NCBI RefSeq assembly: GCF_001941345.1
Contig: NZ_CP009251.1
Location: 620,001-684,000 of the forward strand
Reading direction: 5' to 3'
Length of the DNA: 64,000 nucleotides
Source of the DNA: Corynebacterium stationis
Lineage (GTDB): Bacteria > Actinomycetota > Actinomycetes > Mycobacteriales > Mycobacteriaceae
The position numbers and the translations under genes were made by a program. A model generated the notes under the pieces. That model was not told where the DNA came from. It saw only the letters and a program-made list of their open reading frames with translations, and made no database searches. Shown piece after piece: positions 6,660-53,594 of this stretch. How positions within the stretch are numbered: the stretch's first letter is position 1; every line of letters begins with the position of its first letter.

Positions 6660-6676
6660 TTTCAGTACTCACTTTC

Positions 6677-38320: not shown

Positions 38321-38336
38321 TTCCCGTTCAATGGAA
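38321..38336. promoter_or_regulatory. AATGGAA half-site in the pcaHG promoter region
   Basis: TTCCCGTTCAATGGAA shares the half-site AATGGAA and a facing TTCC with a perfect palindrome at 45382-45396 in front of the MHS transporter gene. It lies 180 nt before pcaH. Both could bind the IclR-type regulator encoded nearby. The gap 38181-38515 otherwise holds only promoter sequence as far as I can see. Confidence 0.35.
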
Positions 38337-38515: not shown

Positions 38516-39220
38516 ATGTCAGAACCAGTGACACCTTTGACCAACGTTGGAGTCGGTGACGTGTGGGCACCCCGTGCATTCCCGGAATACCGCACCACGA
38601 TTAAGCGCAACCCAGGCAATGACCTCATCATGGTCAATGAGCGCCTCGGCGAAATCACCGGCCCAGTATTCGGTGAACAGGACTTGGGTGGTCTCGATAA
38701 TGACATGACTTTGGTCAACGGTGGCGAAGCCGTCGGCCAGCGCATCTTGGTCCATGGCAAGGTCACCGGCTGGGATAATAAGCCCATCCCCAATACCTTG
38801 ATCGAGGTATGGCAGGCGAATGCTGCTGGACGCTACCGCCACAAGAACGACTCCTGGCCAGCACCTTTGGACCCACACTTTAATGGTGTCGCCCGTTGCT
38901 TGACTGATGCTGAAGGTAACTACAGCTTCTATACCATCAAGCCTGGTGCCTACCCATGGGGCAACCACCACAATGCATGGCGCCCAGCGCACATCCACTT
39001 CTCGCTGTACGGTCGCCAGTTCGGTGAGCGCCTGGTCACTCAGATGTACTTCCCGGATGATCCAATGTTCTTCCAAGACCCAATCTTTAACTCGGTGCCA
39101 AAGGGCGAGCGTGAGCGCATGATCTCCGTCTTCGACTATGACCAGACCCGCGAAAACTGGGCACTGGGCTACAAGTTCGACATCGTCTTGCGCGGCAAGA
39201 ACTCCACCCCGTTTGAATAA
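38516..39220 (+). CDS. pcaH: Protocatechuate 3,4-dioxygenase beta subunit
   Basis: A 234-residue subunit of the intradiol dioxygenase that opens protocatechuate to 3-carboxy-cis,cis-muconate. The non-heme Fe(III) ligands are visible: Tyr in AAGRYRHKNDSWPAPLDPHF (about residue 105), Tyr in KPGAYPWGNHHNAWRPAHIHF and both His of the AHIHF motif. AGGAGG stands 8 nt before the ATG. It is the first gene of the pcaHGBC-qsuB-qsuD series and pairs with pcaG 28 nt downstream. Length is normal. Confidence 0.95.
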   Translation: MSEPVTPLTNVGVGDVWAPRAFPEYRTTIKRNPGNDLIMVNERLGEITGPVFGEQDLGGLDNDMTLVNGGEAVGQRILVHGKVTGWDNKPIPNTLIEVWQANAAGRYRHKNDSWPAPLDPHFNGVARCLTDAEGNYSFYTIKPGAYPWGNHHNAWRPAHIHFSLYGRQFGERLVTQMYFPDDPMFFQDPIFNSVPKGERERMISVFDYDQTRENWALGYKFDIVLRGKNSTPFE

Positions 39221-39248
39221 GCCGACCCAGATTTAAAAGGAGCAGAAA

Positions 39249-39911
39249 ATGCGTATTGATAAATCTCCGAACGGTGAGTTCCGTTACGGCGAACCAGTTG
39301 TTGCAGACCAGGATGAAGCCGAATTCGGCGTGACTCCATCCCAGACCGTGGGCCCTTATGTGCACATCGGTCTGATCCGTGAAGGATCCGAGATCATCGC
39401 TGAGGGCGAAGATACCGTCGAAATCACCGTGACCACCATTGATGGTGATGGAAACGCGATTGCAGACTCGATGATCGAATTCTGGCAGCCTAATGCCGAG
39501 GGGGTATTCAACTCTGAATATGACCCACGTGCAGAAAATGTCAGCGCCGAGGGCTTTCGCGGTCTAGGTCGTGCTTTTGCCGATGAGACCGGTACCTCGA
39601 CCTTGCGCACCATCATCCCGGGCCAGTTGGATGTCATCGAAGGCTATAGCCCAGCACAGCAGGTAGAAGCACCGCACATCAAGGTTGGGGTCTTTGCCCG
39701 CGGCATGCTGGAGTGCTTGTACACGCGTTTGTACTTCCCAGAATTTGCTGAGGCAAATGCGCAAGATCCTGTCTTGCAGCTTGTCGATGAAGCACGTCGC
39801 GACCTGCTCATCGCGCAGAAGACCGAGAAGGGCTACCACTTTGATATCTACGTCCAGCACGTAGATCCGGCACAGGAAACCCCTTTCTTCGACATCGTGG
39901 CCGAGAACTAG
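39249..39911 (+). CDS. pcaG: Protocatechuate 3,4-dioxygenase alpha subunit
   Basis: A 220-residue non-catalytic partner of PcaH, completing the dioxygenase. It shares the intradiol fold: TPSQTVGPYVHIGLI, DSMIEFWQPNAEGVFNSEYDP and APHIKVGVFARGMLECLYTRLYFPE. It lacks the full set of iron ligands, as expected for the alpha subunit. AAAAGGAG precedes the ATG. The order pcaH-pcaG is the usual one. Confidence 0.93.
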   Translation: MRIDKSPNGEFRYGEPVVADQDEAEFGVTPSQTVGPYVHIGLIREGSEIIAEGEDTVEITVTTIDGDGNAIADSMIEFWQPNAEGVFNSEYDPRAENVSAEGFRGLGRAFADETGTSTLRTIIPGQLDVIEGYSPAQQVEAPHIKVGVFARGMLECLYTRLYFPEFAEANAQDPVLQLVDEARRDLLIAQKTEKGYHFDIYVQHVDPAQETPFFDIVAEN

Positions 39912-39932
39912 GCCCGCATTACTGTAGGACAC

Positions 39933-41159
39933 ATGACATACCCGTATTCACGCAGCACCTATTCCGATATCGCAGGTGGGGACACTGCTGTCCACTCGTT
40001 GATTTCAGATGAGCAGTTCCTCGGAGCTATCGTTGAATTTGAAAAAGCTTTGGCCACAGCCGCATATGACTGTGGTTACTTGACCGAATCGGAACATGCC
40101 GCGGCTGTTTCGGCGATAGATTCTTATGAGCTGGATGTAGAAGAGATCTCGCAGCTTTCTGCAGCGGGAGCGAACCCTGCGATTCCCATCGCTAAGCAGC
40201 TCAAAGCTCTCGCTGGTGAAGAAGGCATCAAAGGCATCCATACCGGCGCTACCAGCCAGGACGCCATTGATACGGCTCTGGTATTGGTGTTCAAACGCGG
40301 TGTCGCAGAGCTTATCGATGCCACCTCGCACACCATGCGCATACTTGCCGGGTTGAGTGAGCTATTCGCTGACACCCCAGCTGTGGGCCGCACCCTGGGC
40401 CAAGCTGCGCAGCCGATGACTTTCGGGTTGATTGCGGCGAACTGGCTGGAAGCACTCCATGATGCATGCCAGGAAGTTGAGCGCGCTAGTGCATTACTTC
40501 CTGTGCAATACGGTGGCGCGACTGGAACTTTGGCCGCGACCCATCCTTATGGCGTGAAGATTCATGACAAGCTCGCGAACATTTTAAAGCTCGAATCTCA
40601 TCCACGAGTTTGGCATACAAACCGTGTACCTTTTGCCCGCTTGGCCTCGTCTCTAGCAGTGCTAGCTGGTGCCATCCGCAAGATTGCGGGCGACATCGTG
40701 TTCATGTCTGCCACCGAAGTAGGGGAGCTAAGAGAAGCTACCCCGGGTGGTTCTTCTTCCATGCCGCACAAGGCCAACCCAGCGGCCGCGATTGCTGCTG
40801 ATGGATATGCCCGGCGCGCGCCGGGGCTTGCCAACACCATGTTGGAAGCGATGGATTCACGTATGCAGCGTGGTACCGGTAGCTGGCATGCCGAGTGGGC
40901 GAGCTTGCGTGAGCTGGTTGCGGTTACGGCTTCTGCACAGGCTCGTCTTTTTGCCAGTCTCAATGGCATCGGCATCAATAAAGAGGCGATGGAAAACAAC
41001 CTGCTTGATACCGGCGCCGTTGGCCATGCGCAGGAGTTGATCCAAGACATTCTTCATCGCGCGGAGTCGCTTCAAGATCCGCACCGCGAAGATGATTGTT
41101 CGTACTGCACGCCGTGGCAAGACGCGGTTCGTGACAGCAATAAATTTACTAAGGAATAA
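39933..41159 (+). CDS. pcaB: 3-carboxy-cis,cis-muconate cycloisomerase
   Basis: A 408-residue enzyme of the fumarase/argininosuccinate lyase superfamily that turns 3-carboxymuconate into the 4-carboxymuconolactone. Signatures: HTGATSQDAIDTALVL (about residues 102-117), and the mobile catalytic loop GGSSSMPHKANPAAAIAADGYARRAPG near residue 270. The C-terminal part is shorter than in some homologues. It lies 21 nt after pcaG and 2 nt before pcaC, so the four pca genes form one tight operon. Confidence 0.93.
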   Translation: MTYPYSRSTYSDIAGGDTAVHSLISDEQFLGAIVEFEKALATAAYDCGYLTESEHAAAVSAIDSYELDVEEISQLSAAGANPAIPIAKQLKALAGEEGIKGIHTGATSQDAIDTALVLVFKRGVAELIDATSHTMRILAGLSELFADTPAVGRTLGQAAQPMTFGLIAANWLEALHDACQEVERASALLPVQYGGATGTLAATHPYGVKIHDKLANILKLESHPRVWHTNRVPFARLASSLAVLAGAIRKIAGDIVFMSATEVGELREATPGGSSSMPHKANPAAAIAADGYARRAPGLANTMLEAMDSRMQRGTGSWHAEWASLRELVAVTASAQARLFASLNGIGINKEAMENNLLDTGAVGHAQELIQDILHRAESLQDPHREDDCSYCTPWQDAVRDSNKFTKE

Positions 41160-41161
41160 CA

Positions 41162-41575
41162 ATGACTCAGCAGAATCCAGGACCTGACTATCAAACCGGA
41201 CGCCAGGCAGCACACGATACCGGCATGGCTAATCGCCGCGCGGTCTTGGGGGATGCCCACGTTGATGCTTCGGTGGAGAAGATGACCCCGGTGACGGAAA
41301 AATTCCAGGACTTTATCACCCGCACCGCGTGGGGCGATGTCTGGCAGCGCGATGGGCTTGATTTCACCGAGCGCCGTTTGCTCACCATCGCTATCTTGAC
41401 CGCGGTGGGCAATGACGGCGAGCTAGACATGCACATTCGTGCTGCACTACGCGCTGGCGTAGATGCGGACAAGATTGGTGAGGTGCTGTTGCACACCGCC
41501 ATTTATGCAGGTGTTCCTAATTCCAACCACGGATTCGCTTTGCTCAACGCTGCAGTTAAAGAGCTTGAGGGATAG
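41162..41575 (+). CDS. pcaC: 4-carboxymuconolactone decarboxylase
   Basis: A 137-residue stand-alone member of the carboxymuconolactone decarboxylase family, which produces beta-ketoadipate enol-lactone. Recognisable segments are RRAVLGDAHVDASVEKMTPVTEKFQDFITRTAWGDVWQR and LTIAILTAVGNDGELDMHIRAALRAGVDADKIGEVLLHTAIYAGVPNSNHGFALL. In many actinobacteria it is fused with PcaD as PcaL; here it is not, and no enol-lactone hydrolase is in the window. It is 2 nt after pcaB and 6 nt before qsuB. Confidence 0.92.
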   Translation: MTQQNPGPDYQTGRQAAHDTGMANRRAVLGDAHVDASVEKMTPVTEKFQDFITRTAWGDVWQRDGLDFTERRLLTIAILTAVGNDGELDMHIRAALRAGVDADKIGEVLLHTAIYAGVPNSNHGFALLNAAVKELEG

Positions 41576-41581
41576 ATAGTT

Positions 41582-43444
41582 ATGCGTACTTCTATTGCAA
41601 CGGTCTGCCTATCCGGCACGCTTGCTGAAAAGCTCCGCGCTGCTGCCGATGCAGGCTTTGACGGCGTAGAAATCTTCGAGCAAGACCTCGTTGTCTCCCC
41701 GCATTCCCCTGAGCAAATCCGGGATCGGGCAGCCGAATTGGGCTTGACTTTAGATTTGTACCAGCCGTTTCGTGACTTGTTGAGCGTGGAAGAAGACGTC
41801 TTCCAGGACAACTTGCGCCGGTTGGAATCCAAGTTCCAGCTCATGCAGCGCCTGGGCATGGATCAGATTCTGGTGTGCTCCAATGTCGCGACCGCAACGG
41901 TTGATGATGACGATGTGCGTGTGGATCAGCTTCGTCGTGCCGGCGAGTTGGCCGAGCGTTATGGCTGCTATATCTCTTATGAAGCTTTGGCGTGGGGTAA
42001 GTACGTCAACACTTATCAGCATGCTTATGACATCGTTGCCAAGGTGGATCATCCACATGTCGGCACGTGCCTAGACTCATTCCATATTCTTTCGCGCGGA
42101 GATGATCCCAGCGGTATCGCGGATATGGACCCAGCAAAGATTTTCTTCTTGCAGCTTGCCGATGCCCCCTCGATGGAAATGGGCATCTTGCCCTGGTCGC
42201 GTCACCACCGGGTATTCCCTGGCGAAGGCGATTTTGACTTGAAGTACTTCATGGAGCAGGTCGCGAAATCTGGCTACGACGGTCCTGTGTCTTTGGAGAT
42301 TTTCAACGATAAATTCCGCGAAGCTGACGTTGCGCGCACCGCGATTGATGGTCTGCGCTCCTTGATTTGGCTGGCGGATAAAACTGCTGGACGCGTGCCG
42401 GATTCGCAGATGGAATTTCCGCAGCTTGCCGATGCCCAAGCACCTCGTGGCTTTGACTTCGTCGAATTGCGCACGGGACGTCTTGGTGAAGTTACCCGGG
42501 CTTTGCACCAGCTGGGCTTTAGCCTGGGCGGCTACCACCAGTCCAAGCCGGAATTTCAGGCGTGGGTGCAAGGCGATGTTCGCATCATCGTTGAAGATGA
42601 GGGCCCTACCGGGGGCGCGACAGCGGTGACCGGGCTCGGTGTCATCGTTGATGATGCCACTGCAGCAGCTGAGCGCGCGATTTCGCTGAAAGCGACCCCC
42701 GTGCCTCGTGTGACTGGGGAAGATGAAGAAGACCTTCATCCGGTTTATACCCCGAGCGGATCGGAGCTGTACTTCTGTGGGCCTGGCCCGGATGGAAAGG
42801 GTCGCACTTGGGTTCCAGAGTTCGGCTTTGGCCCAGAAGATATCACCAGCGGAAATGCCGATAAGGCGCTGATTAACTCGGTGCACCACATTGCATTGGC
42901 GCAACCGCGCCACACTGCTGCTGAAACCAGGCTGTTTTACTCTTCTGTATTGGGCTTGGATTCTGCGGCGCCGGAATTCCTGTCTTCGCCAGCAGGCCTT
43001 GTGCACAAGCAGGCCATCGAGGGGGAGAAGGTTCACTTTACAGTCTCTGCTGCGCCAGAAGGATCGGAGCAGGGCGGATTTTTTGCCGAAAACTACCCGG
43101 AGCACATCACCTTCCACACTGATGACGTTTTTGCCGTCGCACAGCGTGCTGTTCAACGTGGTTTGAAGATGCTGGCTATTCCAGAAAACTACTACGACGA
43201 TTTAGCAGCCCGCTTCGGCTTAGAACCTGCTTTCATAGCGCGTATCAAAGAGTTCAATATTTGCTACGACCGCAGTGACAATGGCGAGTATCTGCACTTT
43301 TACACCGCGCCTTTGGGCAACACCTTCTTTGAGGTTGCAGAACAACGCGGTGATTACAGCGGCTTTGGCTGGGCAGATGAACCCATTCGCTTGGCTGCGC
43401 AGTATCGCGCCTTGCGTGACGATGTCCGCGGCATCCCGCGCTAA
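41582..43444 (+). CDS. qsuB: 3-dehydroshikimate dehydratase with HPPD-like C-terminal half
   Basis: A 620-residue two-part protein closely matching C. glutamicum QsuB. The N-terminal half (about residues 1-280) is a TIM-barrel dehydratase, MRTSIATVCLSGTLAEKLRAAADAGFDGVEIFEQD, with metal-site residues in ISYEALAWGKYVN, GTCLDSFHILSRGDDP and HRVFPGEGDFDL. It converts 3-dehydroshikimate to protocatechuate. The C-terminal half has two vicinal-oxygen-chelate domains like hydroxyphenylpyruvate dioxygenase, with VHHIALAQPRHTAAETRLFYSSVLGL and HITFHTDDVFAVAQRAVQRGL. Its placement directly behind pcaHGBC routes protocatechuate straight into ring cleavage. Confidence 0.95.
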   Translation: MRTSIATVCLSGTLAEKLRAAADAGFDGVEIFEQDLVVSPHSPEQIRDRAAELGLTLDLYQPFRDLLSVEEDVFQDNLRRLESKFQLMQRLGMDQILVCSNVATATVDDDDVRVDQLRRAGELAERYGCYISYEALAWGKYVNTYQHAYDIVAKVDHPHVGTCLDSFHILSRGDDPSGIADMDPAKIFFLQLADAPSMEMGILPWSRHHRVFPGEGDFDLKYFMEQVAKSGYDGPVSLEIFNDKFREADVARTAIDGLRSLIWLADKTAGRVPDSQMEFPQLADAQAPRGFDFVELRTGRLGEVTRALHQLGFSLGGYHQSKPEFQAWVQGDVRIIVEDEGPTGGATAVTGLGVIVDDATAAAERAISLKATPVPRVTGEDEEDLHPVYTPSGSELYFCGPGPDGKGRTWVPEFGFGPEDITSGNADKALINSVHHIALAQPRHTAAETRLFYSSVLGLDSAAPEFLSSPAGLVHKQAIEGEKVHFTVSAAPEGSEQGGFFAENYPEHITFHTDDVFAVAQRAVQRGLKMLAIPENYYDDLAARFGLEPAFIARIKEFNICYDRSDNGEYLHFYTAPLGNTFFEVAEQRGDYSGFGWADEPIRLAAQYRALRDDVRGIPR

Positions 43445-43512: not shown

Positions 43513-44382
43513 ATGACAGATAAGACCCTACTGCTTGGCCTGATTGGCCACGGCATTGCCAAGTCTCGCACTCCAGGGATGCAAGAAGCTGAAGGCTTGG
43601 CGCAAGGAATTCCTACGACCTACCGCATTATCGATACCGGCGAAGCGCCAGCCAAAGACTGGGCGTTGAAGGATCTTTTGGATGCCACACGCACCTTGGG
43701 CTTTAACGGGCTCAACATCACCCATCCGCACAAGCAGGAAGTCTTGGAATTTCTGGATGAGGTTGACGAGCGCGCGGCAAAGATTGGTGCGGTCAACACC
43801 GTGGTAATCCGCGACGGCAAGTTCTACGGCTACAACACTGATGTCACGGGCTTTGGCCGCGGACTAGAGCAGGGACTTCCTGATGCCAAGATGGACAATG
43901 TCGTACAGGTTGGCGCTGGGGGAGCAGGCAATGCCGTGGCGCATTCGGTGATTGCAGCGGGTGCGAAGAACCTGTTCGTAGCCGATCTTGACCCGCAGCG
44001 CGCGCAGCAGTTGGCAGAAAATGTCACCGCATCCTCGCCCGTCGAAGCGGGAACCTTTACCGTTACCGGCGTTGATATGGCCGATGTGGAAAAGTACATC
44101 GTCGAAGCTGACGGCGTCATCAATGCAACTCCCGTTGGTATGGCGCAGCTACCAGGCACGGCTTTTGATACCTCCATCTTGAAGCCTTCGCAGTGGGTCA
44201 GTGACGTTATTTATCTGCCGTTGGAGACGCAATTGCTGCGTGAAGCTAAAGAAATTGGCTGCTCCGTCATTGATGGCTCGGGCATGGCGGTGGGACAAGC
44301 CTTGGATGCTTTCAAGTACTTCACCGGCCTGGATGCTTCTGCGGAGCGCATGCGCGAGACCTTTATCGCGCAAGGAGAATAA
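43513..44382 (+). CDS. qsuD: Quinate/shikimate dehydrogenase (AroE family)
   Basis: A 289-residue NAD(P)-dependent enzyme of the AroE family that oxidises shikimate to 3-dehydroshikimate or quinate to 3-dehydroquinate. Motifs: IGHGIAKSRTPGMQEAEG at the substrate site, NITHPHKQEVLEFLDEVDERAAKIGAVNTVV with the catalytic Lys, YNTDVTGFGRGLEQG with the catalytic Asp, and the Rossmann VVQVGAGGAGNAVAHSVIAAG. DGSGMAVGQALDAFKYFTG near the C-terminus is typical. In C. glutamicum qsuC lies between qsuB and qsuD; here it is absent. The SRTP motif in place of SRSP fits QsuD rather than biosynthetic AroE. Confidence 0.9.
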   Translation: MTDKTLLLGLIGHGIAKSRTPGMQEAEGLAQGIPTTYRIIDTGEAPAKDWALKDLLDATRTLGFNGLNITHPHKQEVLEFLDEVDERAAKIGAVNTVVIRDGKFYGYNTDVTGFGRGLEQGLPDAKMDNVVQVGAGGAGNAVAHSVIAAGAKNLFVADLDPQRAQQLAENVTASSPVEAGTFTVTGVDMADVEKYIVEADGVINATPVGMAQLPGTAFDTSILKPSQWVSDVIYLPLETQLLREAKEIGCSVIDGSGMAVGQALDAFKYFTGLDASAERMRETFIAQGE

Positions 44383-44424: not shown

Positions 44425-45214
44425 ATGGCGAATTCAAAGTCCGGCGAAACCGTTCTTGAGCGCTGCGTTCGGGTGCTCGAGGCTTTTGATATTTCTCACT
44501 CATCGTTGACGGTGAGTGAGATTTCTCGTCGAGCGAATTTGCCGATGTCGACTGCCCATCGGCTCGTCGCCGAGCTTGTCGAGATCGGGCTTTTGGATAG
44601 GCGCGAAGAAAAGGCTCTTGTTATGGGGCAGCGTGCGTGGGAGATTTTTGCGCGCAGCAACCCGGTTGAGGAGCTCCGTTTTCGCGCGTCCTGTCTTAGA
44701 GGGGGTGCACTCAGCGGTGCAGCAGTTTACCTCGCTGGCAGTTCCGCAATTCGATGATGACCAGGTGCTCTTTATTGAGCGTTATACGCGTTTCGGGGAC
44801 GCGAAGATCCGTGCGACTCAAGGCGGGCGTATGGATTTATTTGATAATTCTAATGGCATCATCTTTTTAGCGCATGCGCCTTTTGATGTGCTCGAGCGCG
44901 TATTTTCAAAGCCGATGGTGTCCCAAACCGATGGCAAAACTTATGACCCGGATGCGGTCCAGGAGCAAATAGAATTTGCCCGCCGCACGGGTTATGCGCG
45001 AATTGCTAATGGCATGGTGCGCGAGAATGTCGCTTATGCCGTTCCTTTGATGGGCGCAGATGGCCGCGTAGTGGCTGCCATTTCAGTAGTCGGGCGTGTT
45101 GAAGAATGCGATGACGATGTTATTTTGACCGTGCTCGCGGCATCAGGAAACCAGCTTTCGCATGGTGATAAGCCTTTGATTCTACCGCGCTTTCCACGCC
45201 ATGGTCGTGCTTAG
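44425..45214 (+). pseudogene. IclR-family regulator (PcaR-like position), frameshifted
   Basis: An IclR-type transcription factor in two frames. The first has the winged-helix domain: VLERCVRVLEAFDISHSSLTVSEISRRANLPMSTAHRLVAELVEIGLL. The second has the effector domain with DQVLFIERYTRF, FDNSNGIIFLAHAP, RRTGYARIANGMVRENVAYAVPLMGADGRVVAAISVVG. The break lies in CGCGCG at 44683-44688; one more CG pair gives ELRFRARPVLEGVHSA and a 792-nt gene of 263 residues, a normal IclR length. The neighbours suggest it controlled the pca/qsu genes in response to protocatechuate or shikimate-type acids, as PcaR does in C. glutamicum. As read, the protein loses the effector domain. Confidence 0.85.
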
Positions 45215-45466: not shown

Positions 45467-46823
45467 ATGGTTGTGACTAAACAAATCGTAGGCACACTGC
45501 CCCAGGCGTCAGCCGCCAAAACATCTGTCGAAGAATCGGCGCATGCCCATCGTCAAAGCCCTCGCAAAGCAGCTCTAGCTTCTTTCCTTGGTTCCACTCT
45601 CGAGTATTACGACTACGTGCTCTACGGCACGGCATCGGCTTTGGTATTTAGCCGTTTGTTCTTTGATTCCAACAACCCCACCATGGCCACCATTGGTGCA
45701 CTGATGACTTTCGGTGTTGCGTACATTGCCCGTCCTTTGGGTGGTCTGGTTATGGCGCATATCGGTGACCGCATCGGACGCAAGACCGCGTTGATGATCA
45801 CCTTGATGATCATGGATATTTCTTCTATCGCCATTGGCCTGCTGCCAACGTATGAACAGATTGGCATTACCGCCACTATCTTGCTGCTGGTCTGCCGCAT
45901 CGCCCAGGGCTTCTCTGCAGGCGCAGAATCTGCCGGTGCATCGACAATGACCATGGAGCACTCGCCAGAAGGCAAGCGCGGATTTTTTTACTTCCTCCGT
46001 CATGCTGGGCTGTTCCGCAGGTAACGTACTGGCCGCTTTGGTCATGGTTCCGGTCATGATGATGCCCGAAGATGCCATGATGTCGTGGGGCTGGCGCATT
46101 CCATTCCTGCTTTCTGCACTAGTGCTGGCAGTTGCATACTTCGTGCGTACCCACCTGGAAGAAACCCCAGTCTTTGAAGAAAATGAAGCAGAGACAGCTG
46201 AGCGTAAGGCACCTGCTCTTGAGGTGCTCAAGAAGCAGCCATTGGATGTTGTTCGCGTCTTTTTCATCACCTTCTTCTCTGTCGTGCAGTCCACCTTCAT
46301 GGTCTACGCGCTGAGCTACGCAACTGAGCACACCAATATTGAGCGCTCAACCATGCTGGTTGTTAACGCAGTAGCGATGGGTATCTCCATGATCACCATC
46401 CCGCTGGCAGCAATGCTGGGTGACCGCATCGGCCGCAAACCAACCTTGCTTATCGGCGCAGTCGGCTGCATCATCACCACGTACTTCTACTTTGATGCGC
46501 TGACGAATGAAAATATCGTTCTTGTATTCGCACTGTGCATCATCAACCAGGGCTTCTTCTACTCCTGCTGGAACGGCGTGTGGTGTGTCTTCTTCCCAGA
46601 GATGTTCGCTCAAGAATACCGCTACACGGGTATGGCAATGGGCAACCAGCTCGGCCTGGTTCTGACCGGATTTGCTCCCGCCATCAGCGCGGCAATCTAT
46701 GTCACCTTCAGCTGGCAGGGCGTTGTCTACTTCGTCGCAGGCTGCATCCTCATCTCGTGCGTATTTATTATCTCCACTCGCGAGACCGCTTTCACCAAGC
46801 TCGAAGATCTCGGACGAAAGTAA
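45467..46823 (+). pseudogene. MHS-family (MFS) organic acid:H+ symporter, shikimate-type, frameshifted
   Basis: A metabolite:H+ symporter of the major facilitator superfamily in two frames. The first has ASFLGSTLEYYDYVLYGTASALVF, typical of the MHS subgroup, and the loop motif MAHIGDRIGRKTALMITL. The second continues with SAGNVLAALVMVPVMMMP, the second loop motif AMLGDRIGRKPTLLIGAVG, and six C-terminal helices. The frame breaks in a run of seven T at 45983-45989; with six T the protein reads through as GFFTSSVMLGCSAGN and the gene is 1356 nt (451 residues), the normal MHS size. Shikimate, quinate or a similar acid is the likely substrate from context. Confidence 0.87.
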
Positions 46824-46827
46824 GACA

Positions 46828-47931
46828 ATGTCCCAGAACAGTCTCCGCGTCGGAATCATCGGTTGTGGCGTAATTGCTAAAAATCACGCCCTCGCTTTTC
46901 AGGCCCACCCGCAAGTTCACGTTGTTGGCGTCGTTGATATTGATATCAATCGCGCCCAGGAATTTGCTACGCAGTGGAATATTGCTCAAGCTTATTCGGA
47001 TGTTGAGGAGCTTTTAAGCTCCGGTATCGACGCGGTGACAATCTGCACGCCGCACCCCACTCACGAAGCACTTGTTATGCAAGCTGCCGCTGCCGGGGTG
47101 CACGTCATGTGCGAAAAGCCGCTGTCAACGGATGACCAGGCCACCCAACGCATGGATGCAGCGTGCGAAGAAGCTGGGGTGTTACTCAGCGGCATGTTCC
47201 AACGACGCTGGTGGCCAGCAGCCCAGGAAATTAAAGCGGCAGTCACTAAAAACCCAGCGATTTTGGGACACGTGCAAGTCGCCTTGCACCGCGAGCTGAG
47301 CTACTACACCAAAGATGCGTGGCGCGGGAGCTGGGATGCTGACGGCGGCGGGGTCTTGATGAACCAAGCCGTGCACTACATTGACCTTTTGCTGTGGTTT
47401 ATGGGCGAGGTCGTAGAAGTGTCCGGTCGGATCAATTCCTTCAAGCATGCCGCAAATATCGAGGTTGAAGACTCTGCGGTGGCCACTCTAACCTTTGCCT
47501 CCGGGGCAATGGCCACCTTGAATTTGACCACCTCGACCACGCCATCGTTAGGCGCTAGCGTGCACGTCACCACGGATAAGGGCAGTTCTTTGACCTTATT
47601 GGAATGGCCAGAAGGCGCTGAAGCACGGAAGATCACCAACGGTCACGGCGATGAAATCGAATCCTTGCCGGCCTATCCACAGGGGGTGTTCCCGAACGTC
47701 GATCTGCGCACCATCAATGATCAACACATTGGCTTTCATACCAAGCAGATCGCGAATTTCGTTGATGCCGTATTGGGGGAGCAAGAATTGCTTGTCGATG
47801 GCCCCGAGGCCACCAAAGCCCTGCGCACCCTACTTGCTATCTATGAATCCCATCGCACTGGACAGCCCGTAAAACTCTCCAATGCGCCGTGGCCTACAGT
47901 CGTCACGGTGCCTGAGTCCGTGCACATTTAA
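46828..47931 (+). CDS. Gfo/Idh/MocA-family NAD(P)-dependent dehydrogenase
   Basis: A 367-residue oxidoreductase related to inositol and sugar dehydrogenases. The N-terminal Rossmann domain starts LRVGIIGCGVIAKNHALAF, the EKP motif is in VHVMCEKPLSTDDQATQ, and the C-terminal domain has the catalytic segment DADGGGVLMNQAVHYIDLLLWFMG with the conserved His. I chose ATG 46828, 4 nt after the stop of the transporter gene; the longer frame overlaps that gene. In this cluster it probably oxidises a hydroxyl of a cyclic polyol, a sugar or a shikimate-type acid. The exact substrate is unknown. Confidence 0.85.
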   Translation: MSQNSLRVGIIGCGVIAKNHALAFQAHPQVHVVGVVDIDINRAQEFATQWNIAQAYSDVEELLSSGIDAVTICTPHPTHEALVMQAAAAGVHVMCEKPLSTDDQATQRMDAACEEAGVLLSGMFQRRWWPAAQEIKAAVTKNPAILGHVQVALHRELSYYTKDAWRGSWDADGGGVLMNQAVHYIDLLLWFMGEVVEVSGRINSFKHAANIEVEDSAVATLTFASGAMATLNLTTSTTPSLGASVHVTTDKGSSLTLLEWPEGAEARKITNGHGDEIESLPAYPQGVFPNVDLRTINDQHIGFHTKQIANFVDAVLGEQELLVDGPEATKALRTLLAIYESHRTGQPVKLSNAPWPTVVTVPESVHI

Positions 47932-47959
47932 GCGCTTTAGACAGTCAAGGATTAGTAAA

Positions 47960-48781
47960 TTGAGTACACGTGAGCTGGGAGTTGCTCCTTTATCCACGCT
48001 GACAACGCCACCGGATGAATTTATCTACCTGGCGCATGAAGTGGGCTTTGAATTTGTCGGCCTGCGCGTTATCCCCGTAACTCCGCAGGAACCGCAATAT
48101 GATCTCTCACCTGGTTCGAAGCTGCATCGCAAAGTAACCCAGGCCCTGGAAGATACTGGTCTGAAGGTTAAAGACGCCGAGTTTATCTTGCTCAAGGGCA
48201 CAGATCAGCGCACTGAGTGGATGACTGCTTTTGAACGAGCTGCTTCCTTAGGTGCGCGCACGCTTACGGTGGCAGTCGGCATCACTGATATGGCAAAGAC
48301 CGCAGAGATTGTCGCAGAAATGGTAGAAGCTGGTAAAGAGTTTGGAATTACTCCAGCTATCGAACCGATTTCCTACCAGGGTGTAAACAGCCTCGACCAG
48401 GCAAAGCAGCTAGCTGCGACGGGGAGTTTGATTCTCCCAGATACCTTGCATCTGCACCGCGGCGGCATGAGTCCGCAGCAGCTTGCCGAAGTCACCTCGT
48501 ATGTCCCACTGATTCAAATCTGCGGTGCAGAAGCGCAGCGACCAGCAACGCGTGAGGGATTGGTTGATGAATCCCGCGGGGCACGTCTGGCACCTGATGA
48601 AGGCGCTAACGATGTCGTGGGCTTTGTGCGTGCGCTGCCACGCGAGATCCCTGCCAGCGTGGAATCGCCTAATGATTCCTTTGTTAATGAGCATGGCGCA
48701 CGCGCCTGGCTGGAAAAGCTTTTCCGCGCAGGCCAAGCAGTTATCGAAGCAGCAGAGGCTGCCGATACCGCAAATCCTTAA
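47960..48781 (+). CDS. TIM-barrel sugar phosphate isomerase/epimerase family protein
   Basis: A 273-residue member of the AP endonuclease 2-like TIM-barrel family, which includes inosose dehydratases, xylose isomerases and 3-dehydroshikimate dehydratases. Segments: MSTRELGVAPLSTLTTPPDEFIYLAHEVGFEFVGLRV, with metal-site Glu in LLKGTDQRTEW and ITPAIEPISYQGVNS, LILPDTLHLHRGGMSPQQL and IQICGAEAQRPATREGLVDESRGARLAPDEG. The best start is the TTG at 47960, with AAGGA 8 nt upstream. It may dehydrate or isomerise the product of the Gfo/Idh enzyme encoded just before; this is inference. Confidence 0.8.
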   Translation: MSTRELGVAPLSTLTTPPDEFIYLAHEVGFEFVGLRVIPVTPQEPQYDLSPGSKLHRKVTQALEDTGLKVKDAEFILLKGTDQRTEWMTAFERAASLGARTLTVAVGITDMAKTAEIVAEMVEAGKEFGITPAIEPISYQGVNSLDQAKQLAATGSLILPDTLHLHRGGMSPQQLAEVTSYVPLIQICGAEAQRPATREGLVDESRGARLAPDEGANDVVGFVRALPREIPASVESPNDSFVNEHGARAWLEKLFRAGQAVIEAAEAADTANP

Positions 48782-48815
48782 ATCCCTTTAAAACCCTGAA
48801 AATCCCCTAAGGAAT

Positions 48816-50591
48816 ATGAACATGGCTAATTCTTCTAATTCTTCTACTTCTTCGGCTCCTTCCGAGTCTTTTGACGTAGTCATCGTCGGCTCTGGTGCCG
48901 GTGGATTATCTGCTGCGGTCACCGCGGCTTATCACGGTCTTTCGGTATGCGTGGTGGAAAAATCCGAGGTGCTAGGCGGCGCTACTTCATGGTCAGGCGG
49001 ATGGGCGTGGACTCCTGGCACGCACTTTGCCAAACAAGATGGAGTAGTAGAAAGCAAGGAAGAATTCCAGACCTACCTGCACAGTGTCTTGGGTGAGCGC
49101 TACGACATTGAAGCTAAGAATATCGATGCCTTTTTGGAAGCTGCCCCTCACATGGTGGAGTTCTTTGCCAAGAAGACCTCCCTGGATTTCACCCCGGGCG
49201 CAAAAATCCGCGATATCTACGGCCAATTGCCATCCGCTGGCACCGGACACCGCTCAGTTGGTCCGAAGCCTTTTGATTTGAAGGAAGTTAAGCCATCTTT
49301 GCGCAAGAAATTGCGTCATCAGCTGTATGAAACTTCCTTCTTCGGCATGGGCATTATGGCAGGCGAAGATCTGACCAAGTTCTTATCTGCTTCCCAATTA
49401 GATCCGCGCGGATGGATCCACGCTGCGCGTCGCGTCATAACGCACATCTTTGACCTTCTCTTTTATGGCCGCACCATGCACCTGGTCAACGGCACTGCGC
49501 TGACGGCACGTCTGGCTAAATCTGCTGATGACCTAGGCGTGGAACTGTGCACCAACACCACGGCCCTAGAGCTTATTAAATCTGATTCCCGGATTTCCGG
49601 CGTGAAGGTGCAAGGTGAACAGGGCAGCTACATCCTCGAAGCGACAAAGGGGGTTGTACTGGCGACTGGCGGCTTCCCGAATAACGTGGAGCTGCGCCGG
49701 GAGCTATTCCCCAAGACCCTAACCGGTCAAGAGCACTTTACGCTTGCACCTGAGACGACCACGGGCGATGGCTTGCGCATGGCGCGCGAGGCCGGCGCGC
49801 ACTTTGTCGACGACAACCACTCGGCGGCTGCGTGGTGCCCAGTATCGCTCGTGCCCTATTTCAACGGCAAGACAGGCGTCTTCCCACACATCATGGACCG
49901 CGCTAAGCCAGGCTCCATTGGCGTTACCAAAGACGGCAAGCGCTTTGTCAATGAAGCCAACGGCTACTTCGACTACGTCGACGGCATGATTAAAGCAACT
50001 AAAGACGGTGACCCCGTCGCCTCCTGGCAAATCGCCGACGCCAGCTTCGTGCGTAAATACCCCTTAGGAATGGCGAAGCCTTTCCCTATGCCGCTGTTTC
50101 CATACCTTGCCTCCGGCTATCTAAAAAGGGGCAAGACCATCGAAGAACTCGCCCGCAAATGTGGCATCGACCCGGAAGGGCTCAAGGCCACGGTCGAGGA
50201 ATTCAATGCGAATGCACGCGCCGGTAAGGACCCAGAATTTGGCCGCGGGGAAACAGAATTCAACCGCTATGGAGGAGACCCAAAGGTAGGGCCCAACCCG
50301 TCGTTGGGACCCATTGAAAAGGGACCATTCTACGCGGTGAAAGTTCACCCAGGCAGTTTCGGTACCTTCGCCGGAATCGCCGCGGATGAACACGGCGCGG
50401 TATTAGATAAGGAAGGAGAAACAATCGAAGGCCTGTTTACGGCAGGCAATGACCGTAATTCCATCATGGGTGGCTTTTATCCCGCCGGCGGCGTCAACCT
50501 TGGCCCCGCATTGGGATTTGGCTACATCATCGGCCGCACGCTAGCCGGTGCGAAACACTATGAAGTTAGTGGAAAAGAATCGACGCTATAA
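48816..50591 (+). CDS. KstD/fumarate reductase-like FAD-dependent dehydrogenase
   Basis: A 591-residue flavoprotein of the FAD_binding_2 family, closest in layout to 3-ketosteroid-delta1-dehydrogenase. The FAD motif is FDVVIVGSGAGGLSAAVTAAYHGLSVCVVEKSEVLGGATSWSGG (about residues 20-63). The C-terminal FAD segment GLFTAGNDRNSIMGGFYPAGGVNLGPALGFGYIIGRTLAG (about 543-582) matches the KstD type, including the Tyr and Gly-rich stretch used for proton transfer. A central GVVLATGGFPNN is typical. Such enzymes desaturate cyclic ketones. Among shikimate-type catabolic genes it may dehydrogenate an oxo-cyclohexane carboxylate towards an aromatic ring. The substrate is not known. Confidence 0.85.
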   Translation: MNMANSSNSSTSSAPSESFDVVIVGSGAGGLSAAVTAAYHGLSVCVVEKSEVLGGATSWSGGWAWTPGTHFAKQDGVVESKEEFQTYLHSVLGERYDIEAKNIDAFLEAAPHMVEFFAKKTSLDFTPGAKIRDIYGQLPSAGTGHRSVGPKPFDLKEVKPSLRKKLRHQLYETSFFGMGIMAGEDLTKFLSASQLDPRGWIHAARRVITHIFDLLFYGRTMHLVNGTALTARLAKSADDLGVELCTNTTALELIKSDSRISGVKVQGEQGSYILEATKGVVLATGGFPNNVELRRELFPKTLTGQEHFTLAPETTTGDGLRMAREAGAHFVDDNHSAAAWCPVSLVPYFNGKTGVFPHIMDRAKPGSIGVTKDGKRFVNEANGYFDYVDGMIKATKDGDPVASWQIADASFVRKYPLGMAKPFPMPLFPYLASGYLKRGKTIEELARKCGIDPEGLKATVEEFNANARAGKDPEFGRGETEFNRYGGDPKVGPNPSLGPIEKGPFYAVKVHPGSFGTFAGIAADEHGAVLDKEGETIEGLFTAGNDRNSIMGGFYPAGGVNLGPALGFGYIIGRTLAGAKHYEVSGKESTL

Positions 50592-50610
50592 AAGTAACTA
50601 TCTCGCGATA

Positions 50611-50629
50611 GTGTGAGTAAATCTCACAC
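50611..50629 (+). promoter_or_regulatory. Palindrome GTGTGAG-TAAAT-CTCACAC before the TRAP genes
   Basis: Seven-base perfect arms with a 5-nt spacer lie in the 61-nt gap between the KstD-like gene and dctQ. A second small hairpin, CTATC/GATAG, overlaps the left side. The spacing differs by one base from the CRP/GlxR-type TGTGA-N6-TCACA. It could be an operator, or an mRNA processing hairpin that sets TRAP gene expression. Confidence 0.45.
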
Positions 50630-50652
50630 CTTTAACCCCAAGGACTACTGAC

Positions 50653-51282
50653 ATGACTGAAATGCCAGCTACACCTTCTTGGATGGGCGCACCGAAACGC
50701 CCAGCCATTCTCAAATGGTTATCCAAAATCGAAGAAGTACTCGGAGCACTTCTTGTACTTCTGATCTTTGTTCTTCTGACAATCCAGGTATTCCAGCGCT
50801 ACCTACCTGTAGCCACCCAGCCGTGGATTGGGGAAGTATCCCGCTACGCACTGATGGCCTTGGGCTTTATGCTCGTAGGCTCATTGATGGGGCAAGGCCG
50901 TCACCTCAGCATCGAAGCCATCATGAATGTCGGACGCCCCGAGTTCAAGCGTTTTGTTGTGGTGATATCTTCCATCCTCAGCGCCATTATCTGCGCCGTG
51001 CTGGCGCAAGACTCTTGGGCACTGATTTCCTCAGATACCGGACAAACGCTGCAAGTAACCGGATTCCCGATGTGGATCTTGTACATCATCCCTTTCTTCG
51101 CTTTTGTCTCCGGCACTGTTCAGGCGCTGGCCAACATTATTTGGGCGCCTGTAGAAAATATTGAAACCATCGAAGAAGAAGCATTGCGGGCGGTGGACGC
51201 CGAGACTTCGGTCGCTGTTTCCACGAACTCTCCGGGTGACAAACTCGACGGCGGAACCCTTAATGAGGAGGCGCGTTCTTAA
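50653..51282 (+). CDS. dctQ: TRAP transporter small permease
   Basis: A 209-residue membrane protein of the DctQ family with four helices. The family pattern is seen in KIEEVLGALLVLLIFVLLTIQVFQRY, WIGEVSRYALMALGFMLVGSLMGQGRHLSIEAIM and GFPMWILYIIPFFAFVSGTVQALANIIWAP. A charged C-terminal tail of about 45 residues follows. Its stop overlaps the start of dctM in TAATG. It forms the membrane part with DctM and uses an extracytoplasmic binding protein, driven by an ion gradient. Confidence 0.88.
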   Translation: MTEMPATPSWMGAPKRPAILKWLSKIEEVLGALLVLLIFVLLTIQVFQRYLPVATQPWIGEVSRYALMALGFMLVGSLMGQGRHLSIEAIMNVGRPEFKRFVVVISSILSAIICAVLAQDSWALISSDTGQTLQVTGFPMWILYIIPFFAFVSGTVQALANIIWAPVENIETIEEEALRAVDAETSVAVSTNSPGDKLDGGTLNEEARS

Positions 51283-52559
51283 TGACTATCGCAATTTTGA
51301 TTATTGCTATCGCCATATTAATGGCCATCCGCGTGCCCGTGGCACTCTCAATTTTGGCCCCCAGCTTGGTGTACATGCTGGCGACTGGAAACAGCCCCGG
51401 ATTTACCATGCGCATTGCAGCCGATGGCATCGCCAGCTTCCCGCTACTGGCCGTCCCACTATTTATCCTGCTGGGCACCGTGGCGAACTACTCCGGTGTT
51501 GCGGATCGCCTCTTTGATTTCGCAGAATCCTTGCTCCACCGCGTAACCGGCAACCTCGGTTACGTCAACGTGATGGCTTCTGTCGGCTTTTCCTGGATGT
51601 CTGGTTCGGCTTTAGCCGATGCCGCAGCGATGGGCAAGACCCTGGTGCCCGCAATGGAGCGCGCCGGGTTTAAGAAATCCTTCGCTACCGGTCTAACTGC
51701 TTCCTCATCACTGATTTCGCCAGTGATGCCGCCGTCAATCCCGGCTGTTATTTATGCTTCGGTCGCAGCAGTCTCCACCGGCGCGCTCTTTGCAGCCTCA
51801 GTTCTTCCGGCGCTGCTGCTGGCTGGAGCATTGCTGGTCGTCGTGGCGTTTTATATTGCACGCCATAAAGATGAACTCGTGGGTTCTGCAGATGAACCGC
51901 GTCCAATCGGGCAGGCCACCGTACGCGTATTAGGTGCATTGCTAACACCCGTCATCATCTTGGGCGGTATCTTGGGCGGATTCTTCACTCCGACTGAAGC
52001 AGCTGCTTTGGGTGCGCTCTACATCATCATCTTGGGTTTTATTTACAAAAAGCTCACCGTGGCAACTCTATGGAAGGCCTTGCGCGAAACCGCAGTAACC
52101 ACCGCGTCGATCATGTTGATTATCGTCGCCGCTACCATCTTGGGCTGGATTCTAGCCCGTGAGGAAGTTCCACAGGCACTGTCGTCGTTGATGACCGGCA
52201 ACCTAAATTCTGCTACGGCCTTCTTGCTTGTCACCGCCGTATTGCTGCTTATTTTGGGAGCTTTTATCGATGCCACAGCCTTGCTTCTTATCACCGTGCC
52301 TATTCTGTTGCCGGTGGCCACTGAGTTTAACGTTGACCCGATTCACTTCGGCGTGGTGACTATCCTGGCGCTGATGACGGGTCTACTCACCCCGCCAGTG
52401 GGAACAGTGCTCTTTGTAATGAGTTCGGTTCTACGCATGCCGGTTGGTGACGTATTCCGCGGTGTTATTCCATTCCTTGTGCCAATTGGAGTGGTCTTGC
52501 TCTTGCTGATTTTCTTCCCCGCCATTGTCACCGTCGTTCCCGCCGTAATTGGAATGTAA
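51282..52559 (+). CDS. dctM: TRAP transporter large permease
   Basis: A 425-residue membrane protein with about 12 helices, of the DctM family. Recognisable segments are FPLLAVPLFILLGTVANYSGVADRLFDFAESLLHRVTGNLGYVNVMASVGFSWMSGSALADAAAMG and LTASSSLISPVMPPSIPAVIYA in the N-half, and ILGGFFTPTEAAALGALY and LLTPPVGTVLFVMSSVLRMP in the C-half, which are the usual ion- and substrate-site repeats. It is coupled to dctQ by overlap and precedes dctP by 12 nt. Confidence 0.92.
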   Translation: MTIAILIIAIAILMAIRVPVALSILAPSLVYMLATGNSPGFTMRIAADGIASFPLLAVPLFILLGTVANYSGVADRLFDFAESLLHRVTGNLGYVNVMASVGFSWMSGSALADAAAMGKTLVPAMERAGFKKSFATGLTASSSLISPVMPPSIPAVIYASVAAVSTGALFAASVLPALLLAGALLVVVAFYIARHKDELVGSADEPRPIGQATVRVLGALLTPVIILGGILGGFFTPTEAAALGALYIIILGFIYKKLTVATLWKALRETAVTTASIMLIIVAATILGWILAREEVPQALSSLMTGNLNSATAFLLVTAVLLLILGAFIDATALLLITVPILLPVATEFNVDPIHFGVVTILALMTGLLTPPVGTVLFVMSSVLRMPVGDVFRGVIPFLVPIGVVLLLLIFFPAIVTVVPAVIGM

Positions 52560-52571
52560 GGAGAAATTCCG

Positions 52572-53594
52572 ATGACTAAAAAATCTATTTCCACTGCGAG
52601 CTGGGGCGCACTTGCTGCTGGTGCAGTGCTTGTCGCCGGTGCACTAGTTGGAACCAGCGTCATTCATGATCACGCCGTGCGCGGTTCGGAGCAACTGACT
52701 TTTGCCAATAGCTATAACCTCAACCACCACCACAACGCGTGCGGTACCGCGCTTGTGCAACAGCAACTCGTTGCCAGTGATTCCGAGCTGCAGCTCACGG
52801 TCTTTCCATCGAGTCAATTAGGCGGTGACGCAGAACGCGTCGCATCTTTGCTGGATGGCGATATCGATATTGACCTGCAGGGCTCTTCGGCTTTGGCGTC
52901 TGTCTATGAACCGATTGGCGTGATGGACATGGCCTATGTCTTTGACAACCCGGATCACCTCTTCGAATGGTTCGATTCGGAAGCTTCTCAGCAAGTCAAA
53001 GACGATTTTGAAGAAGCGACCGGCGCAAAAATTTTAGGCGTTTGGTACCTGGGAGATCGTACTTTCTCTGCCAATGCTCCGGTGCGCACTCCAGAAGACC
53101 TCCAGGGCTTGCGTTTGCGGTATCCAGAAACTCCCGCGCACCTTGCATCGGCTGCGGCGGTCGGTGCAGAACCAGTCGCTGTGGCTTTTGAGGAAGTCTA
53201 TCTTTCCTTGCAGCAAGGGCTTGTCGATGGCCAAGAGAATCCCATCTCCCTGACCGCCGAAAACTCACTCGATGAGGTCGTGGACTATGTCAGTCTGTCC
53301 CGCCACGCGGTGGGCTCTCAGCTCATCATCGTCGCGGGAGATACTTGGGAGCGGCTAAGTGAACAAGAACAGGCTGACCTTCAAGCTGCAATCTCTGATG
53401 TGCGCGCCCAAAACCGCCAGTGTGCTGATGAGGATGAGCAAGAAACCATGACGCGCTGGAAGGAACAAGGAACGCCGGAGATTATCGAAGATGTCGACCG
53501 CGAAGCCTTTATGGAAAAGGCGCATGCCTACTGGGAAGAAAACCTAAGCCCAGAAGAATTAGAGGTCTATAACTCTATTCGCTCGGTGAAGTAG
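52572..53594 (+). CDS. dctP: TRAP transporter solute-binding protein
   Basis: A 340-residue DctP-family binding protein. The key Arg that holds the substrate carboxylate is in LQGLRLRYPETPAHLASAAAVGAEPVAVAFEEVYLSLQQGLVDGQENPI (about residues 178-226). The N-terminus has one hydrophobic helix (about 11-31) but no lipobox Cys, so it may stay as a membrane anchor or be cleaved. TRAP binding proteins mainly take up carboxylates, which fits a shikimate-like or aromatic acid. AAGGAG precedes the ATG. The last 36 nt overlap the convergent aminotransferase gene. Confidence 0.9.
   Translation: MTKKSISTASWGALAAGAVLVAGALVGTSVIHDHAVRGSEQLTFANSYNLNHHHNACGTALVQQQLVASDSELQLTVFPSSQLGGDAERVASLLDGDIDIDLQGSSALASVYEPIGVMDMAYVFDNPDHLFEWFDSEASQQVKDDFEEATGAKILGVWYLGDRTFSANAPVRTPEDLQGLRLRYPETPAHLASAAAVGAEPVAVAFEEVYLSLQQGLVDGQENPISLTAENSLDEVVDYVSLSRHAVGSQLIIVAGDTWERLSEQEQADLQAAISDVRAQNRQCADEDEQETMTRWKEQGTPEIIEDVDREAFMEKAHAYWEENLSPEELEVYNSIRSVK

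Follow-up and report, generated by a model that had tools for sequence, protein, structure and literature searches.

What is the role of a Gfo/Idh/MocA dehydrogenase, a TIM-barrel protein, a flavin dehydrogenase resembling 3-ketosteroid delta1-dehydrogenase (KstD-like, hereafter KstD) and a TRAP transporter located directly behind the protocatechuate (pca) and quinate/shikimate (qsu) genes of Corynebacterium stationis? These genes lie in a 64-kb stretch of its 2.86-Mb genome (contig NZ_CP009251.1, G000:C1:620001-684000), hereafter the window; a sequence-only reading had interpreted the set as encoding the import of a polyhydroxylated cyclohexane carboxylate or its glycoside, followed by hydroxyl oxidation, ring dehydration or isomerization, and desaturation to an aromatic acid such as protocatechuate. 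That interpretation appears right in kind and is partly supported, and it can be sharpened in substance: the true unit consists of the TIM barrel and KstD, accompanied by an alcohol-oxidizing enzyme and an importer that vary. With a probability of about 0.5, the two enzymes would constitute a conserved side branch in the catabolism of hydroaromatic acids, leading from a saturated acid, most likely dihydroshikimate, into the 3-dehydroshikimate/protocatechuate route.

The first line of evidence comes from the search for the same gene set in other genomes that the sequence-only reading had called for. A total of 56 loci were mapped by tblastn, and 48 of them with a full KstD, from 46 genomes, were counted after removal of duplicates (L139, L140), a short contig (L038), remnants or partial genes (L047, L048, L049 and L147, whose KstD is in two pieces), and a locus devoid of KstD (L151); a scan of genome contigs had added L034 and the Enteractinococcus and Yaniella loci. 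The TIM-barrel gene lies near KstD in all 48, within 1.7 kb in 46 and at 3.8 kb in two, with an identity of just 31–33% for TIM in L133, L148, L149 and L150, and of 30–31% for Gfo in L133 and L150. The other neighbours, counted wherever tblastn gave 60 bits or more within the fetched stretch (about 20 kb), are Gfo (42 loci), the major facilitator superfamily (MFS) symporter (41), QsuD-like (34), IclR (26) and LysR (25) regulators, SDR (21), AKR (19), old-yellow-enzyme-type reductase (16), MDR dehydrogenase (13), a second flavoprotein KstD2 (12), YciI-like (12), QsuB (12), TctA/TctC (9), pcaH/pcaG (4) and the window-type TRAP (3). Because TIM is always near KstD while Gfo and the importer vary, these two enzymes constitute the constant core. 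At the genome level, KstD was detected at an E-value of 1e-200 in 42 of 245 genomes of the family of G152 (taken as Micrococcaceae from protein names; 35 of the 42 were fetched), all of them among the 45 with TIM at 1e-10. Across 151 Corynebacterium genomes, a full KstD orthologue (65–100% identity) is present in eight, and part of one in G046, G094 and G117, while a match at 1e-150 occurs in only two of 394 genomes of the class, the window's own among them.

Two additional gene combinations recur at these loci. A ChcC1-like KstD2, accompanied by a YciI-like protein and an MDR alcohol dehydrogenase, stands beside the module in several of them (L035 17184-19897, L126, L136 and others), perhaps as a second ring-acid branch. 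The old-yellow-enzyme-type reductase, a fused protein named by eye (L117 12461-14527 and 15 more), is typically found between Gfo and TIM.

Does the pairing extend beyond Actinomycetota? In a plasmid collection, the best 36 KstD records (H81-H116) show about 45–58% identity, include several near copies, and have incomplete gene tables. Among the rows listed, a TIM match is located within 2 kb of KstD in 31 of these records, and the Bosea vaviloviae, Bosea vestrisii and Phyllobacterium records have a TIM neighbour by annotation and tblastn, giving 34 of the best 36; the other two are from Novosphingobium resinovorum, where no TIM was found by either approach, and from Microvirga. The pair thereby reaches Alpha- and Betaproteobacteria. 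Of 17 annotated plasmid loci, chosen from the top matches and not at random, the KstD stretch includes a shikimate dehydrogenase in 10 and none in seven, and a QsuB-type fusion in four; Gfo is annotated in only three of 15 proteobacterial plasmid loci. Paracoccus aminovorans (L161) holds pcaGHCD, QsuB, IclR, KstD and TIM together, and KstD-TIM stands back to back with TctCBA, shikimate dehydrogenase and QsuB in both Antarctobacter and Gemmobacter. In a midpoint-rooted FastTree tree of 105 KstD-family sequences, read with no formal test, the orthologues of both phyla form one clade, with TIM within 2.5 kb in all but L145, L146 and L164; paralogues, the ChcC1-like KstD2 among them, branch elsewhere, and the nine sequences outside the clade that carry a TIM label do so through sitting in the same loci. 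Two other annotations were recorded around the plasmid pairs: a NIPSNAP-family protein just behind KstD in L156, L159, L160, L163 and L167 (in L160, behind a second flavoprotein), and in Alloyangia a tannase/feruloyl esterase (L165 82-1725), which would fit the release of ring acids from plant esters.

What reaction could each partner catalyze? The window KstD scores above the cut-off of NCBIfam PRK12839 (977 bits against 940), an FAD-dependent oxidoreductase family whose function is not named. Compared with 3-ketosteroid delta1-dehydrogenase (4c3x, chain numbering shifted by 20), it keeps Tyr318, Tyr487 and Gly491, but Tyr119 is replaced by Ile or Val in 48 of 48 sequences, leaving incomplete the residue set whose roles are given in excerpts of PMC5348764. 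The loss of Tyr119 speaks against an unrelated steroid, inositol or C-glycoside catabolism lying here by chance, a reading suggested by the KstD family name and by matches of Gfo to IolG models and DgpA. Gfo is moreover dispensable, the QsuD link is frequent, and a motif described below is common to the module and pcaH; the arrangement is not due to chance because the neighbours recur in other genomes, and this explanation is considered highly improbable.

Another rival would borrow the chc pathway for cyclohexanecarboxylate of Sinomonas cyclohexanicum, with KstD acting as a 4-oxocyclohexanecarboxylate or 4-oxocyclohexene carboxylate dehydrogenase and 4-hydroxybenzoate as the product. The model for ChcC2 (4-oxocyclohex-2-ene-1-carboxylate 5-dehydrogenase, NF053677) does match the window KstD across nearly its full length with 496 bits, and KstD2 of L035 is nearest to ChcC1 (402 bits), yet the curated cut-off of ChcC2 (900) is not reached, nor is that of ChcC1 (4-oxocyclohexanecarboxylate 2-dehydrogenase, NF053676; 328 bits against 1000), and the linked dehydrogenase is QsuD-like. 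The kinship with 4-oxocyclohexanecarboxylate enzymes evoked by the sequence-only reading is thus not borne out at the level of these models, and such a route seems very unlikely. At L044, a flavoprotein frame beside pca genes may correspond to a 4-hydroxybenzoate hydroxylase, no search having been aimed at that enzyme.

The TIM barrel aligns with the 3-dehydroshikimate dehydratases QuiC1 (5hmq, E 4.6e-10) and QsuB (probability 98.4). Its residues E135, D161, H164, Q186, R209 and E235, invariant among 48 TIM sequences, correspond to Glu134, Asp165, His168, Gln191, Arg210 and Glu239, listed for the dehydratase in excerpts of PMC7442255. In a 19-row alignment (A1), H164 and Q186 vary slightly and are thus no more than nearly invariant. 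R36 and R206 are further invariant residues; Ser205 aligns with Ser206 of the QsuB type but outside the conserved columns, and Arg64 has no aligned counterpart. Judging from these alignments, and with Glu134, Asp165, Gln191 and Glu239 of the QsuB type taken as metal ligands, the barrel appears to keep the metal and catalytic residues of a 3-dehydroshikimate dehydratase. It comprises one domain in its 273 aa, devoid of the HPPD-like C-terminus of the two-domain architecture, which is not universal among these dehydratases because AsbF, as described in excerpts of PMC9324987, is a single-domain enzyme of that type. Alternatively, the barrel could move or epimerize the ketone or hydroxyl of the oxidized ring acid before KstD and QsuB, as IolI does on inosose, and not dehydrate it. 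Its structure ties with IolI, the profile match to IolI reaches E 1.3e-8, and QsuB would perform the dehydration in the 12 loci that hold it; on the other hand, the strand that carries YHID in IolI has Gln in TIM, and the invariant R-x-x-R of TIM aligns with SRxxR of QuiC1 and not with IolI, making this isomerase version possible but doubtful. The nearest solved relative of the barrel, the uncharacterised Lmo2234 (PDB 2g0w), may have the same chemistry.

The genomic company of the pair points to hydroaromatic acids and protocatechuate, as had been proposed from the window alone. The QsuD-like gene of the 34 loci lies within 7.4 kb of KstD. In the G152 family, at least two QsuD-like genes (E 1e-30) are present in 22 of 42 genomes with KstD versus four of 203 without (hand count; Fisher p 4e-16, this test and the following ones ignoring the relatedness of genomes), and in Corynebacterium, full-length qsuB was found in 16 of 151 genomes, which include all 11 with a whole or partial KstD (p 3e-13). 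This co-occurrence holds even at distance, as in G090, where the two genes are at 2.99 Mb and 0.61 Mb.

Could TIM then be a new 3-dehydroquinate dehydratase replacing QsuC in a quinate branch, with KstD as an auxiliary? A type II dehydroquinase adjoins qsuB in none of the eight Corynebacterium genomes in which the module (or the G094 remnant) is linked to qsuB, versus six of the eight other qsuB genomes (G018, G044, G145, G046, G090 and G117, not G040 and G080; Fisher p 0.007, uncorrected for relatedness, type I enzymes not being sought), and TIM does resemble a hydroaromatic dehydratase. However, G090, G117 and G046 hold a dehydroquinase beside qsuB plus a whole or partial KstD elsewhere, and therefore the module is no mere substitute; this explanation, which also gives the constant partner KstD no task, is judged unlikely.

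A further link is provided by a palindromic motif. Upstream of the MFS gene, in the approximately 250 bp that separate it from the IclR gene, stands the perfect palindrome TTCCATTGAATGGAA, and a related site precedes pcaH. A stricter form of the motif, allowed up to two mismatches, matches the window twice, a count equalled in two of 100 dinucleotide shuffles. Searched with at most one mismatch, TYCCATTNAATGGRA has eight matches in 272 kb (the window and 11 Corynebacterium loci) and none in ten mononucleotide shuffles: five are located 70–137 bp before mfs (window, L034, L040, L041, L046) and three 178–192 bp before pcaH (window, L040, L049). Genome-wide, three sites were found in the window's own genome, two being those before pcaH and MFS, and likewise in G111; G094 has two (one before pcaH), G090 two (one before mfs), and G132 the mfs site only. 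The reversed-pattern control gives none in G000, G111, G094, G090, G132 and G117. Another 821 kb of actinobacterial loci contain five matches, against zero to one per shuffle; one of the five stands before mfs in L132, and another before iclR and a KstD paralogue in L036. The module operon and pcaHGBC-qsuBD thus probably belong to one regulon, joined by this operator motif and an IclR-type regulator whose binding to the palindromes is suggested by their position and symmetry.

Several observations weigh against this linkage. No qsu/pca gene at all was found in the fetched 20 kb of 14 of the 48 loci, and no TYCCATTNAATGGRA site genome-wide in G030, G003, G095 and G125; G117 has four sites, none near its KstD part or qsuB, and the only site of G145 lies elsewhere. 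The reversed pattern occurs once in G030 and twice each in G044 and G145. Homologues found consistently without pca/qsu genes, the outcome that was to overturn the sequence-only reading, are nevertheless not the general pattern. In G018 and G044, two genomes that lack the KstD orthologue, KstD paralogues (37–39% identity) are also preceded by a site, at about 100 bp (G018:C39:66986-67000) and about 230 bp (G044:C1:2772003-2772017), which hints that a related regulon may exist.

Gene identity, pairing, linkage, the common motif and the retained residues are computational observations, from which a pathway can be inferred. A ring hydroxyl would first be oxidized to a ketone adjoining C2, by Gfo/Idh here and by QsuD or another dehydrogenase elsewhere. 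KstD would take hydrogens off C1 and C2, in analogy with its 1,2-desaturation beside the 3-ketone on steroid ring A, and the metal-dependent TIM barrel would remove or reposition the oxygen that flanks the ketone on its other side; these last two steps might occur in either order. The product, 3-dehydroshikimate or directly protocatechuate, would be passed to QsuB and PcaHG. The sequence-only reading had outlined the same types of reaction, and they fit the residues of TIM and KstD. As KstD chemistry requires hydrogens at C1 and C2 beside a C3 ketone, the substrate should have neither the C1 hydroxyl of quinate nor the C1-C2 double bond of shikimate. Dihydroshikimate (3,4,5-trihydroxycyclohexane-1-carboxylate) is the most likely one: C3 oxidation and 1,2-desaturation would yield 3-dehydroshikimate, and loss of the C5 hydroxyl, protocatechuate. 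Its 3,4-dihydroxy analogue, a lactobacillus product, is the next candidate. The task of TIM, a dehydratase before desaturation or an isomerase, is the least certain element. On purely chemical grounds, KstD could also oxidize 3-dehydroshikimate, a 3-oxo ring supplied by QsuD and still able to give up two hydrogens, at C4-C5 to gallate; but the linked ring-cleavage genes are pca (no search was aimed at gallate dioxygenase) and TIM would be left without a task, so that gallate formation seems far-fetched.

Where would dihydroshikimate come from? Excerpts of PMC13204703 indicate that lactic acid bacteria may take quinate via shikimate to dihydroshikimate, and those of PMC7427622 a similar formation from chlorogenate; the title of Carr et al. 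1957, on dihydroshikimate from quinate, appears in the reference list of PMC10558750. A 3,4-dihydroxy-5-oxo acid is formed when a quinate oxidase of Acetobacter acts on dihydroshikimate (Whiting and Coggins 1967, via excerpts of PMC9171043). PMC8706239 seems to write dihydro- for dehydroshikimate, excerpts of PMC10058675 and PMC10216370 contain nothing relevant, and the quinate use predicted for a rumen bacterium in PMC10054779 has no relation to the window gene set. No published gene set for dihydroshikimate catabolism was found in the open-access PMC literature, and as far as these searches show, this branch of hydroaromatic catabolism is undescribed. A wider proposal, more tentative than the pairing of the two enzymes in one branch, is that of a widespread peripheral pathway that re-oxidizes the reduced hydroaromatic acids excreted by fermenters, through KstD-family desaturation to 3-dehydroshikimate and with the help of a new dehydratase/isomerase.

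In contrast to the core, the first dehydrogenase and the importers are variable. Gfo scores far under the cut-off for IolG (TIGR04380; 143 bits against 355) and is replaceable: it was not found in six of the 48 loci, three of which (L046, L125, L128) hold TIM-KstD together with QsuD and QsuB. The MFS protein, judged on its intact L034 homologue (PRK09952, 318 bits, cut-off 538; TIGR00883, 379 of 443), appears related to the shikimate transporter PRK09952 without being a member by score. DctP, DctQ and DctM each exceed the Pfam cut-offs expected of a TRAP transporter, and the best-scoring solved relatives of DctP are SiaP proteins, its 'GLRLR' aligning with 'GLKLR'. The sequence-only reading had counted TRAP as part of the set, which its occurrence in three of 48 loci does not sustain, and nothing was seen in favour of glycoside import. 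TRAP appears to be an element of the qsu/pca part of the locus and not of the core, because DctP (E 1e-60) is restricted to three of 151 Corynebacterium genomes (G000, G111 and G094) and TRAP is kept in G094 despite the loss of MFS, Gfo and TIM; it therefore need not carry the substrate of the module. In the window strain, where the MFS frame is broken, it may be the working importer.

All the genes that the sequence-only reading had named behind pcaHGBC-qsuB-qsuD were found (Table 1), on one strand and with short gaps from the MFS stop to dctP (4, 28, 34, 61, -1 and 12 bp) within 45467-53594. The pcaHGBC names are presumed from that reading and from family resemblance. QsuB scores 502 bits with the QuiC model, under the curated cut-off of 1200, and QsuD 360 bits with PRK12549 (cut-off 235) and 371 with PRK14027, under the cut-off of 515. 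The acid symporter gene is indeed present, but in the window strain it is not one open frame: two frames that overlap, of 185 and 273 aa, take its place, and the IclR gene is split as well. L034 (Corynebacterium sp. J010B-136; KstD 97% identical), a near copy of the window and thus not independent, has the symporter (451 aa) and IclR (263 aa) each in a single frame; the breaks may reflect true decay or an assembly error. The closest named KstD is that of C. stationis (98%).

Table 1. Module genes, associated pca/qsu genes and operator-like sites (window coordinates)
Feature	Position	Strand	Remarks
Operator-like palindrome, 1 mismatch to TYCCATTNAATGGRA	38322..38336		179 bp upstream of pcaH
pcaH, pcaG, pcaB, pcaC	38516..41575	+	Protocatechuate ring cleavage, downstream part of route; open frames
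qsuB	41582..43444	+	Two-domain 3-dehydroshikimate dehydratase type
qsuD	43513..44382	+	Shikimate/quinate dehydrogenase type
IclR regulator	44425..45214	+	Frame broken once here; whole in L034, L040
Perfect 15-bp palindrome TTCCATTGAATGGAA	45382..45396		70 bp upstream of MFS gene
MFS acid symporter, shikimate-transporter type	45467..46823	+	Two frames, 45467-46024 and 46002-46823
Gfo/Idh/MocA dehydrogenase	46828..47931	+	367 aa; proposed hydroxyl oxidation
TIM barrel, xylose-isomerase-like, PF01261	47960..48781	+	273 aa, TTG start
KstD-like flavin dehydrogenase	48816..50591	+	591 aa; PRK12839; proposed ring desaturation
DctQ, TRAP small permease	50653..51282	+	
DctM, TRAP large permease	51282..52559	+	
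DctP, TRAP solute-binding protein	52572..53594	+	

An aminotransferase-like gene (54800-53559) follows dctP on the opposite strand. Farther on, an IS3-type transposase frame (57539-56157, - strand) splits a BCCT transporter gene (55188-58487), both families being named by eye; L034 (643 aa) and L049 (628 aa) have the transporter gene in one frame. Elsewhere in the window's own genome (L050, G000:C1:775000-790000, 6425-7099) lies another KstD-like frame, partial and 233 aa long (47% identity), possibly a remnant.

Should the proposed branch be confirmed, what becomes of the reduced quinate and shikimate products of lactic acid bacteria in fermenting plant material could be tied to genes and a probable regulon, with a substrate open to testing. 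The pair, which occurs in Actinomycetota as well as in Alpha- and Betaproteobacteria and is combined with exchangeable dehydrogenases and importers, would then supply the aerobic side of a cross-feeding loop whose fermentative side has been known since the 1950s. The KstD family would be extended from steroids and cyclohexanecarboxylate to hydroaromatic acids, the misleading labels '3-oxosteroid 1-dehydrogenase' and 'sugar phosphate isomerase/epimerase' would be replaced, and the pair could serve as a biocatalyst turning saturated ring acids into protocatechuate.

How does this module compare with known systems? The quinate oxidase of acetic acid bacteria would share the first oxidation step on the proposed substrate, but it is NAD(P)-independent and cytochrome-linked, and excerpts of PMC9171043 name no genes for later steps. 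With 3-ketosteroid delta1-dehydrogenase (7p18, 4c3x), KstD has in common the family, the FAD motif, Tyr318, Tyr487 and Gly491, and differs at Tyr119. The chc pathway (ChcC1, ChcC2 and ChcB2 models) likewise relies on a KstD-family aromatization of an oxo ring carboxylic acid, whereas the window enzyme remains under the cut-offs and sits in a clade whose members mostly have a TIM barrel as partner. Relative to QuiC1/QsuB (5hmq), TIM shows about 18% identity, a single domain, no aligned Arg64, and a partnership with KstD. The inositol enzymes IolG, IolI and IolE also combine a Gfo protein with a xylose-isomerase-like barrel acting on a cyclic polyol, while the window set has a carboxylate context, KstD, and Gln and RxxR in place of the IolI pattern. 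Finally, the qsuABCD genes of Corynebacterium glutamicum, arranged in that order, have QsuB- and QsuD-type genes feeding protocatechuate in common with the window, where qsuB is not adjoined by a type II dehydroquinase gene (qsuC), the regulator is of the IclR type, and Gfo, TIM, KstD and TRAP are added.

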